64,000 bases of DNA from Odontesthes bonariensis (taxonomy: Eukaryota > Chordata > Actinopteri > Atheriniformes > Atherinopsidae). The stretch spans positions 19,523,209 to 19,587,208 of the forward strand of contig NC_134510.1 in the NCBI RefSeq assembly GCF_027942865.1, given 5' to 3'. A program made the position numbers and the translations under genes. The notes beneath the pieces are model-generated. The model was not told the DNA's origin. It worked only from the letters and a program-made list of their open reading frames with translations, and searched no databases. Below are positions 18,301-30,300 of the stretch, piece after piece; positions within the stretch are counted from its first letter, which is position 1; each line of letters opens with the position of its first letter.

Positions 18301-21300
18301 GAGTTTGCCATGTTCTTGTTAGAAATTAGTGGTCCGTTACTCTTGGTTTCCTGTTACTTCCGGTTCAAAGCCCCGGACCCTGCACTGTCGCGCATGCGCT
18401 TCGCCACTGGGTCGAATTGAATGTATACACGAAAGAGATTCGACTCCCAGTCGCATTATTTTGGGTATCATTTCTAACAGATATTTTATATGGAAGAATT
18501 GTATTTATATTAACTCCAAATTTTTGTTCTCTCTAACATAAATTATATGCTGAATAATTGGAAAACAGGATCTGGGCCACAGACCAAGTTTTGGTGTGTC
18601 TGAAGGCTTTAAGACATTTGCAAATCTAATTGATACTCTACTGTTGGTTGTAAGTAAGCCAACTGAACACAAATAATTGTCTTTAGAAATAGAAATAGTT
18701 AACCAATTTGCTGTGCCCCTGTCATTTTAAGGCTCAAGTGTTAACTCATGGGGCCTTGTCCCACAAGAGGCACCCCATAAAATAAGTAAACCCATACGAT
18801 GCTCCTTTGACACGCGATATGGTGTGACTGGCTCATCTCAATGTCTTACTTTGATTTTCCACTCCTGGTCGTACGTGGCATCCAGAGCTTTTCTTGGCAT
18901 TTCATCAATTGAGATTCCAAGCAAGCTGTGCCTGCATTAATGGTAAAAAAACAACAACAAAAAAAAAAAAACACTGCAGACCAGCCGTTGGTCAAAGAAT
19001 CCTCATCCATGGGCATTAGTGTCTCTGTAGGAGCGCACAAGTTCTACAAACACAGACCTCCTTGTCTGTCGGAAACAGAATTAATTTGCAACACAGTGCA
19101 CACAGCTTTCACATCTGTGAGGATGGACTGAAAAACATGGATATATCCATGCGCATGAACTACAAACCCAAGAATTCAGCTTATAAACAGGACAGATTTA
19201 TTCACGATTCTTTTTCTTAGCCGACGACCGGCATCAGCCATCTACAGTCACAGGGTAGTTTTGTGTCCATTCTGTGGTGGCAGTTTCACACAGCAGAACG
19301 ACGATGGGATACCATCTGCAATGGACAGCGTAAAAGAGTTCAGTGGTACAACGCAAAACTTAACAGGATCACGTCCAACAAAGGCAGCTGACGTTTTACC
19401 AGCCAACAGAAAAAAACATTTTTTCATGCAGATCTACATTATTGGCAACACTGTAATAAAGGCTTTTAAAGTGTGAGGAGGCCTCTCTGCTAACACTTCT
19501 GGTTTTCCCAAAGTCAGAAACTAATAACTTAGGAAAGACCATTTATTCAGCGTATTCTGGATTTGTCAACAGCAGCCAGCAATGTGTTATTTTATTGGTT
19601 CACTTGCAAAGTGAAAACAGATTAATCAACAATCATGATCCTACAGGCATCCAGCAATTGAGCAAAAATGAGCATAAAGGATGAGTTTGATGTCCTTTTT
19701 ATTTTGAGGAGAGGCTTACCGTCTCAGACTTAAATCCTCAGATCTAGTACAAGATTGTTAAAAACAGCTTATTTACCTATAATGGAGAAAACCGTACTGG
19801 GTCATCGATTACCTTAGTTTAAAATGGGGTTTTAAACTATTGTTGCTCTTCTACGTTAAAATCTTCGCTGTCTAGTTTTTGTAGCATTCAAACTGCGCAG
19901 CATTTAGAAAGACAGTTGGGTTAACTCGTAGAAATCAAACTTAATGTATATATATTTTTTTATATAAAAGTCACTCTCTTGTGGAGACGAACAAAACATG
20001 ACCAGGTCAGAGTTATTTACTAAAAGATACTCCGTCACTGTCTTCTATTATTGATATTAACATATTTCAATAGAGCAGCTGGAAGTTTGGTGCCAAGGAC
20101 ACTTAAAAAGGTAGTTTTACCTATTAACTCTATTTTACTCCAAAATCCAAGTTGTCTCAGGCTTAGTGTCCACAAAGTGTTTTCTTTTCTCAACCACTTG
20201 TGCCTTGCACAATATACAGTTGCTTTCAGCGCCTCAGAGCTCTTCCCCCAGCATCTTGTGTCAGAGTGTGGAGTCTGCTCCACATACATCGAGTTTAAAA
20301 CTCGATGTTACCACCTTCACTCGTTTCCTGGCTGCCAGTGCCATCAGGAGAACTCTGATCTACAAATGGGGCAGCTCTGGCTCCGTCTTATCCTAAAGTG
20401 TACTCATTTACGATAACGGACAGAAATGATCGCAACATTTCACCTGTGGGAGCAGATTAGTTAGACATTGAATTTTTCAATCGCGGCATGCACAGCGCGC
20501 TGGTGAGCTGTGGAGTCAAATTTCACATTTGAACTTTTTTGGGGGGTGAAATGCTGGGATGAATCTCTTCCCAAATAAAGAGAAAATGTTATATGGACAC
20601 ATCCCGTTATTAGCTTTGGTCCGTCATTCACCGCCTCCTATCCAAGATGACGTTACTGAAAAGTTAAAGACAGAAACGCTAAACCACAGTAGTCCTCAGA
20701 TTCATGTTGAATCCTCTGTTTTGTGAACCATTGTAGACGTGCCTCATTCTGAAGGGCCTTCCTCCTCGTCCTCTGTGAGGTTGAGTCGAGGTCTCTTGGA
20801 GGGCCTCTTTACCAGCGTTGGTTGTAGGAACAGCATGGGACTGTTCAAGGGGAGCGTGACCGTGCACATACCGCGATCTCTGCTGGTTACTTTAACCTGG
20901 GTACCTTCAATGCACATAAAAAAATAAATAAATTAAAAACAAAACAAAAAAAAGTCTGGCTGTAGCTGATTAAGCAATATTACCCAGTAGTATACGGAGC
21001 ACAGTTTCATAGAGGACAACATACCTGTACTCCGGAATGGATTTTGCAGAGTTTTCATGGACAGCTGTGTGCCGACCGACCTCGTTTTCGGGAAATCAAA
21101 GTCTGGTGGGTCAGTCTGGGACGCGACATGTCTTATAATAGGTGACACTTGGCAGTTGGCGTTTACATGGCATTCCTAAACAGTGACACAGAATAGGAAC
21201 ATTTTATTCTCCCATCATCAAATCAACCATTTTAAACCTGAAGAGTTATGATAGTGAACAGTTGACTTTCGTATTCCACAGTCTTGCATGCAATGTCGGG

Positions 21301-27300: not shown

Positions 27301-30300
27301 TGGCAAACTAACTTAAAGGCGCATTACCGCCACCAACTGGACTGTGGAACAGGTGATCTTTAAAAACATTTCCCAGCTGGATGTTTGCCTCTTCTATTTA
27401 ATGTATGATTGAGACATGTGTGTTCTCTTCTTAAATGTGTTATAATGTTGCTCTCCCATCTTTTGTGTGAACAGGGCATAGACAATACAGCCTCTAAATA
27501 AGGCATTATCGGTCTTTATTTCACAAATACTTTAAGACGAATGAATGAATGCGTACTATTGCACTGTCAGTGCAATAGTACTGACTGCCGTGTTGTGGAT
27601 AACAACACGGCAGTCAGCCACCGTGTTGTTATTTCCAGAGCTATAGTAATACAGAGTTGCGACACGCTTTGAAGTCGCCGCTAGGGCTGTCACGTGGTTC
27701 ATGTGAGCCTCCGGAGTTCCAAACTTCACAGCGCTGTCAGTCAGTTTGAACGGGTCTTAGCGGGACGGAGCACAAAAACGATAACTTTAACATTTACGAC
27801 GCAATTTTCGGTAAATATTGACCCATAATGGGCATTGATCACTTCACCGACGATGTATTTTATCAACGTTTTTCTTTTTTGGAGTGGCAGAGACACATTT
27901 ATCACTGTTTTAGATCTTATAGGGCACCCCTGCATGCCAGCAGGGGGCAGCTACCTTGTCCTCCTTTATACTGAATCATGCCAGTGGTCCAGCTTACCTT
28001 CAGATCTACATCCTCCAACAGAGCCTGATGTTACTGTCTGTTCCCAGGATCTACTCCTGTTGTCCCAAACACTCCATCTGTAGAAGATGTCATTCAGTCT
28101 GTCTGTTCTTTCTGGTGTCAGATGGACAATGAGCCCCCCGCGACATGACCGACGGATTCATTGGGTATAATGGATGTATTAAAATATGAATTTAACTTTT
28201 TTCTGGTTAAAACCATATTAATGACAAAATAAATGTGTCAGTTGTGAAAAAAAAAATAAACAAAACTGATTTAAACCAAACATTTTATTATAAAATGTCA
28301 TCATGGAAAATGTAAAACAAGCCTTAATAAAGAAGTTATTTTACTGCTATTTATACTGTTGGGAAGATTAATCTGCAACAATGAACTGTATTTGATCAAA
28401 TTCAAGGGTTTGGACATTGTGGAAATCTGCTGAAGCCCTATTAAGGGTGATCCATGGCAGCATGACAGCAGCGACCACCACATCTGCTGACCTCCCTGAC
28501 AACAACAACAACAGAGAAATGAATTAATTCATTATCACAGCTGCAAAGTCATGCTGAAAAAAACTTACTTGATAAAAGACCAGTCAGCTAATGGCTCACT
28601 ATGCCAAAAATGTTGTAATTTAATCAATTTACCGGAGAAAATACGTCAGAAATACCAAAAATGTATTAAATGTATTATTACTATTAGGCCTATAGTATTT
28701 TGGTAATGTTTTAAAACCTAACAATCAAAATAACTTTACATAATGTCACCTGACAATAAAAAGTTAACGGACTTTAGTGAAATGATCACGTTAATTACCT
28801 CACGTTAGCCTCCGTCACCAAGCTTTCAGTTAGGTCTCTAAATCCATTACATTTTTAACATCGACATTTCATGCAACCAAATGTAAAAATAACGATATCT
28901 AAGAGTATACTTCTGATAGATAATGCTTAAAAATGTAAACAACGTGTAAAATGCTGTCATTTTATTTACTTACCAGTAATTGTTCTGGACGAGTAATTGA
29001 GGTTAACCACAGATTCTATAATAGGACAGATACGCCACTCACGGTGCATTTCCGGTTTCCAACGAGGCGATTTTGGTTGCAATTCCACCCTCTTTCCACG
29101 TGGGGCGCTCAATTTTGGAAACCAGAATGAATGGAGTCCTATGGAGCTATACGCACTATTGTGCCCTTATCTCAAGATATAATTTTTTCTCTAGTAATTC
29201 GAATGTTGTTTTCGAAAGAGGGTGTTTAGAAAATACCCATGGCTGAGTTTTAGATTTTTAGAGCCACTCATTTGCTTAAAAAAAGGATTTGAAGTGTATA
29301 TGACATCATACATAGCTGGTCGACCAGCTGTCATTAGCACAATGCTAGCGCGTTGTGGACAACAAGAAGCCAACCTGTAAGAAATCAAAGGGATATATGT
29401 ACTCGTTCAGTAGATTTTTGACTTGAAACCCATGTTGAGCTCTCAGAAACTACATTCAAATCTGAGCGCTCTTGAGGAGACTTAGGTGAAACTGACCATT
29501 TGTAGCATCTAGCTCCATTGGGCCCCATTCATTCTGGTCTCCACCGACGCCCCCAGTGGAATTCTGGTGGAACTGCAGCCAAAAAGCCGGTACAATGGGG
29601 CTTAATAGAGAGTGGCAAGGCTGTTGTTATAATGGCTGTGGGTTAACGGAGCTGCGTCTCTTGTTTGGAACTCTGGCGTCTCCGTGACCCACGTGACTTC
29701 CGCAGTGTCGCCACTCTCTTTTTACACCACTCTGCTTCTACCCTCTTATTTTGAAAACCGGAGGTCATTTCACGTGGTTCTAAACTAGCACTATCTTTCT
29801 CAGTGGACTTGGAGCATTCGCTGTAAGCTCCATGGTACGGGCGCAGATAAAATGTTTGAGCGGCTGGTTTGACTACGCGAAGACGAACGGCGGCTCATTT
29901 GACCGCAGTTCTCAATCTAAGCAGGTACAGGGCTGACAGGAAGCGACGTTAGCTTTGGCTAAATAGAAACATGAAACTCATTATTTGAAAGTACTTACAT
30001 CTCCTTCATCTGCTGACTTGCCACGGATAGTTGGCACAGAGACATCCGTCAGCCGAAGTTTGCTAGCTAGTCCTGCCGTGTACTGTCCGAGGTTTTCGAA
30101 GCAGTCTGTTGAAAAGTGGTTCGCACACACCACAAGATTCTTGCCAATTGTAGCAGGGACATGACCATCAAAAATGAATTGGAGCCACGCAGTTCTTCGA
30201 GTTTCTTTGCTCGGGAGAAAATGCAAAGATTTGTGTTGCTCCGTGCAGCCAACAACACAACACTTCATGTGTGATTTTCCTTTCGTAGCCATTGCGCTCG

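Follow-up and report, generated by a model that had tools for sequence, protein, structure and literature searches.

Genes whose variable first exons are spliced to a shared 3′ part are represented by UGT1A and the clustered protocadherins, and host–transposase fusion genes arise by transposase capture. For the Kolobok superfamily of DNA transposons, PMC6004289 describes a TTAA target, AGGRR ends and, as usual, a THAP domain. Here we analyse a locus of the fish Odontesthes bonariensis for which a preliminary description had proposed a cluster of the UGT1 or protocadherin type, with a row of THAP first exons that could all be spliced to one constant tail at 21175-20744. The window is the whole stretch of 64,000 nucleotides (C6:19523209-19587208 of a 945 Mb genome), and a literature search found no account of such a THAP first-exon cluster among the papers listed. 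We consider it probable that the locus consists of Kolobok transposon remnants and a chimeric gene, the row being at least partly jumping-gene wreckage and not a switchable gene cluster. All of the first exons named earlier are present on the minus strand of the last intron (about 13.0-30.7 kb) of a plus-strand host gene, which we take to be CPQ.

Exon TA lies in a truncated, dispersed transposon

The features compared here are the outermost THAP exon of the row, which we call TA, the DNA around it and two tails.

29910 to 30556, minus strand: 5′ fragment (647 bases) of a THAP-Kolobok transposon, containing TA; 88.6-95.5% DNA identity to all ten copies compared (L028-L037)
29999 to 30292, minus strand: THAP exon TA, intact, phase-0 donor GAT/GTAAGTAC; Pfam THAP, expect value (E) 1.7e-10
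21025 to 21175, minus strand: first exon of tail T2, phase 0 in and phase 1 out, from exon reading
20744 to 20904, minus strand: last exon of tail T2, from exon reading, with a stop 14 codons ahead of the one aligned with that of T1
16248 to 16691, minus strand: tail T1, paralogue of T2 and final two exons (16691-16571, 16447-16248) of a Myb/SANT gene

A search of the genome with the TA protein gave 1735 candidates, 150 of which were scored. Twelve of the 150 had at least 93% protein identity, namely the window copy and 11 others (93-98%). Of these 11, eight are on C6, and C22, C7 and C15 have one apiece. We compared ten stretches covering 10 of these 11 copies. The common DNA starts opposite window position 30556 in every one and stops opposite 29910 in eight, opposite 29970 in L030 and opposite 29949 in L035. 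Six copies on C6 (L028, L029, L032, L033, L036 and L037) are also alike over long stretches outside the element, mostly at 98-99% identity with short pieces down to 95.6%, and are therefore probably segmental copies of one insertion; the similarity of the other four (L030, L031, L034 and L035) to L028 is essentially confined to the element. These comparisons show TA to be what truncation has left of a dispersed transposon, and the long relative of this element has a tail of its own. The window copy has lost its outermost 5′ bases and its 3′ part, with homology stopping at 29910, and neither TTAAAGGGGACA on either strand of 12500-36000 nor complete ends for this copy were found.

The long relative is L031 on C7, the sole long copy among the ten fetched.

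L031, 2249 to 2542: THAP exon, 96% identical to TA
L031, 3279 to 3411 and 3526 to 3763: tail exons (a TQTD exon, then a second), aligned with T2 and T1
L031, 3927 to 5882: transposase-like matches, eight pieces at 43-77% identity

Aligned with exons 2 and 3 of L031, T2 was 40% identical over 87 residues (E 3e-16), while T1 was 35% identical over 107 residues (E 5e-11), these being E-values of a two-sequence comparison with composition correction not applied. Because L031 carries a TA-type exon, relatives of the tail and transposase-like sequence in this order, the supposed constant tail is, as judged from sequence, the second and third exons of a transposase gene of the THAP-Kolobok kind, shortened by a stop. 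The pairing of a phase-0 THAP exon with such a tail, one part of the earlier proposal, thus stands. The tblastn query for the transposase was an unverified sequence, with a weak match to the Pfam Mutator profile (4e-6; 26.4 bits, just under the cut-off of 26.5), and we take the catalytic part of L031 to be provisionally identified by this query together with the agreement of its matches. In L010 (5e-39) and on C28 (3e-30), too, it gave matches adjacent to THAP exons. About 9.3 kb of C28 (11300303-11309593; L014 and L015) contains, all in the same orientation, a transposase fragment, a ZAD-like exon and a THAP exon with 54% identity to TA.

We read the ends of the element in four of the ten copies (L028, L031, L034 and L035). 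All four start with TTAA-AGGGG and finish with CCTTTAA, so that TTAA is present at both ends; read inward, the 3′ end is AGGAG in L034 and L035 and AGGTG in L028 and L031. The AGGGG at every inspected 5′ end agrees with AGGRR terminal bases, and the THAP domain is found both as the Pfam match in TA and as the L031 exon upstream of transposase-like sequence. Since Kolobok elements are marked by TTAA targets and by an AGGGG end, we assign the family of TA to this superfamily on these features.

Two paralogous tails and a Myb/SANT gene

16248 to 18311, minus strand: five-exon Myb/SANT gene, intact-looking; 363 codons, all splice sites GT-AG, frame closed
18311-17945, 17349-17176, 17056-16827, 16691-16571 and 16447-16248, minus strand: its exons, from exon reading

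The exon pair at 21175-20744 enters in phase 0 and ends in a stop (21175-21025, 20904-20744), as had been described. It is not a single constant tail: the earlier inventory missed both its paralogue at 16691 and the Myb/SANT gene at 18311-16248, whose last two exons are T1, so T1 is already in use. The first exon of this gene matched Pfam Myb_DNA-bind_4 (E 2.4e-15). The intact-looking gene appears to be a chimera of an unrelated DNA-binding domain and the mid-portion of the same kind of transposase, in which a phase-compatible acceptor would join the Myb/SANT domain to the transposon-derived linker exons.

T1 and T2 share 72% DNA identity over 237 bases and 56% protein identity, and both have a phase-0 entry and a phase-1 intron. 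The position of the final TGA is common to the two, and T2 has an extra TGA 14 codons earlier. A simple filter of 29990-13100 picked out 28 phase-0 acceptors that lead into an open frame, and among these the shared tail occurred only at 21175 and 16691. A genome search with T2 at E<=0.001 matched this locus alone, as would fit a remnant that is old and has perhaps been domesticated. Its likeliest mate, we infer, is the THAP exon TC (24236-23952), since, of the intact first exons upstream of 21175, this one is the closest.

A possible but less favoured explanation is that two domesticated host genes, TC with T2 (THAP) and Myb/SANT with T1, are under selection and that the remainder is debris. 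The Myb/SANT gene is intact, the genome match of T2 is restricted to this locus, no transposase part was found with either combination, and both end at an aligned stop, although T2 has a further stop 14 codons ahead of the shared one. Over 91 codons, synonymous divergence (dS) between T1 and T2 is 1.07 and nonsynonymous divergence (dN) 0.31; the low ratio of 0.29 speaks for selection but may stem from time as active transposons. Coding parts were not seen to be better kept than the intron: in a gapped alignment, identity was 0.70 and 0.71 in the two exons versus 0.70 in the intervening intron, and this near-equality weighs against strong constraint.

Other first exons and neighbouring features

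26940 to 27213, minus strand: THAP exon TD, broken, readable across two frames; donor AAC/GTAAGTAT
25743 to 26228, minus strand: ZAD-like exon, phase-0 end at 25743
25427 to 25677, minus strand: exon TE, broken; second half similar to TA, TB and TC; possible donor CAG/GTTGGT
24777 to 25055, minus strand: THAP exon TB, intact, phase-0 donor TAC/GTAAGAGT; Pfam THAP E 2.6e-11
23952 to 24236, minus strand: THAP exon TC, intact, phase-0 donor CAA/GTAAGTAA; Pfam THAP E 1.5e-10
21940 to 22252, plus strand: feature with 95.7% over 323 columns and one arm of 212 nt at 99%

When reread, the sequence bore out the placement of the first exons, three of them (TA, TB and TC) intact with Pfam THAP matches and phase-0 GTAAG donors, and two broken. 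In TD, which needs two frames, the open half (27234-27037) matched Pfam THAP at E 4.2e-6; a Pfam search with TE gave no match. The ZAD-like exon has 162 open codons and its phase-0 end is confirmed; its identity as a ZAD is not, because a Pfam search gave no significant match, its relative at 34920-34528 reached zf-AD at E 0.047 only, and its AlphaFold model had a predicted local distance difference test (pLDDT) score of 44, too low for use. We keep the label on the assumption that CxxC-47-CxxC spacing indicates the family; profile and fold do not confirm it. The GCCATCTTG motif has two exact matches in the window, directly upstream of TA and of TC, and is also carried by L031, so the TC promoter looks element-borne.

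The competing view raised with the original proposal, a graveyard of transposon first exons, is demonstrated by TA, and TD and TE agree with it. Extended to the whole row including the Myb/SANT gene, all of it decaying, untranscribed transposon DNA, it becomes unlikely, as that gene retains 363 open codons in five exons with consensus splice sites.

Elsewhere in the window, a degraded THAP piece at 38759-39885 (plus strand; Pfam 3e-4, below cut-off) is followed by open frames resembling a transposase of the P-element/THAP9 type; Pfam gave no transposase match. A THAP remnant at 49547-49843 (plus strand), closest to TB (50% over 54 residues), lies in an intron of a putative MRPL13-like gene. 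A long tandem array with units of about 35 bases, judged by eye, spans approximately 36330-38550. Three GGCGGTAAYGC sites with 0, 1 and 2 mismatches to a CTCF consensus were chosen post hoc, and nothing is drawn from them. Searches of viral contigs with TA, T2 and the two alignments found no relatives, nor did TA find any among bacterial and archaeal contigs or phage records, and a DNA-pattern scan of the viral contigs gave five matches, about the chance expectation by our own estimate.

Remaining alternatives and known systems

It is improbable, although conceivable, that the host runs a factory in which a dead Kolobok transposase linker serves as common tail for different DNA-binding domains. 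T2 would take TC (perhaps TB or the ZAD-like exon) and T1 the Myb/SANT domain, and the tail would bring a nuclear signal and an acidic end, together with TQ motifs; a candidate site for the dynein light chain LC8 (T1 SKATQTRV) would possibly pair the proteins. That T1 is an LC8 ligand is a guess only. Its TQT anchor has the residues preferred in PMC6607443 at −3 (K) and −4 (S), whereas its +2 residue is R and the preference there is for P, D or E; many TQT peptides, according to the same paper, fail to bind. Least probable is the UGT1- or protocadherin-like cluster itself, in which several first exons with their own promoters are all spliced to 21175-20744: its one constant 3′ part is replaced here by the paralogues T1 and T2, T1 within the Myb/SANT gene, and the first exons are not all locus-specific tandem duplicates, TA being dispersed and truncated; two of the six are broken. 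The analysis sets aside a striking reading that is largely wrong and traces the constant tail to its source.

Like UGT1A and the clustered protocadherins, the locus, known from sequence alone, has several first exons lined up on one strand ahead of a tail that fits them; unlike them, it has two tails, and at least one of its first exons belongs to a dispersed transposon. The favoured reading of Kolobok remnants with a chimeric gene rests on closer likenesses. As in Kolobok transposons, a THAP exon is followed in L031 by linker exons of the TQTD type and by transposase-like exons, with the TTAA target and AGGGG 5′ end shared by three relatives; unlike them, the window yielded no catalytic exons, whether with TC and T2, with Myb/SANT and T1 or elsewhere, and TA is truncated at both sides. 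T2 resembles the domesticated Xenopus Kolobok transposases described in PMC6004289 in being transposase-derived and apparently non-repetitive, whereas here the catalytic part is missing and one tail sits on a Myb/SANT domain. As in host–transposase fusion genes, a foreign domain is combined with transposon exons via a phase-compatible acceptor. If the Myb/SANT gene is expressed, this would be a transposon capture that, unlike those fusions, reuses the linker in place of the DNA-binding or catalytic part, and would turn the linker's own function into a direct question.
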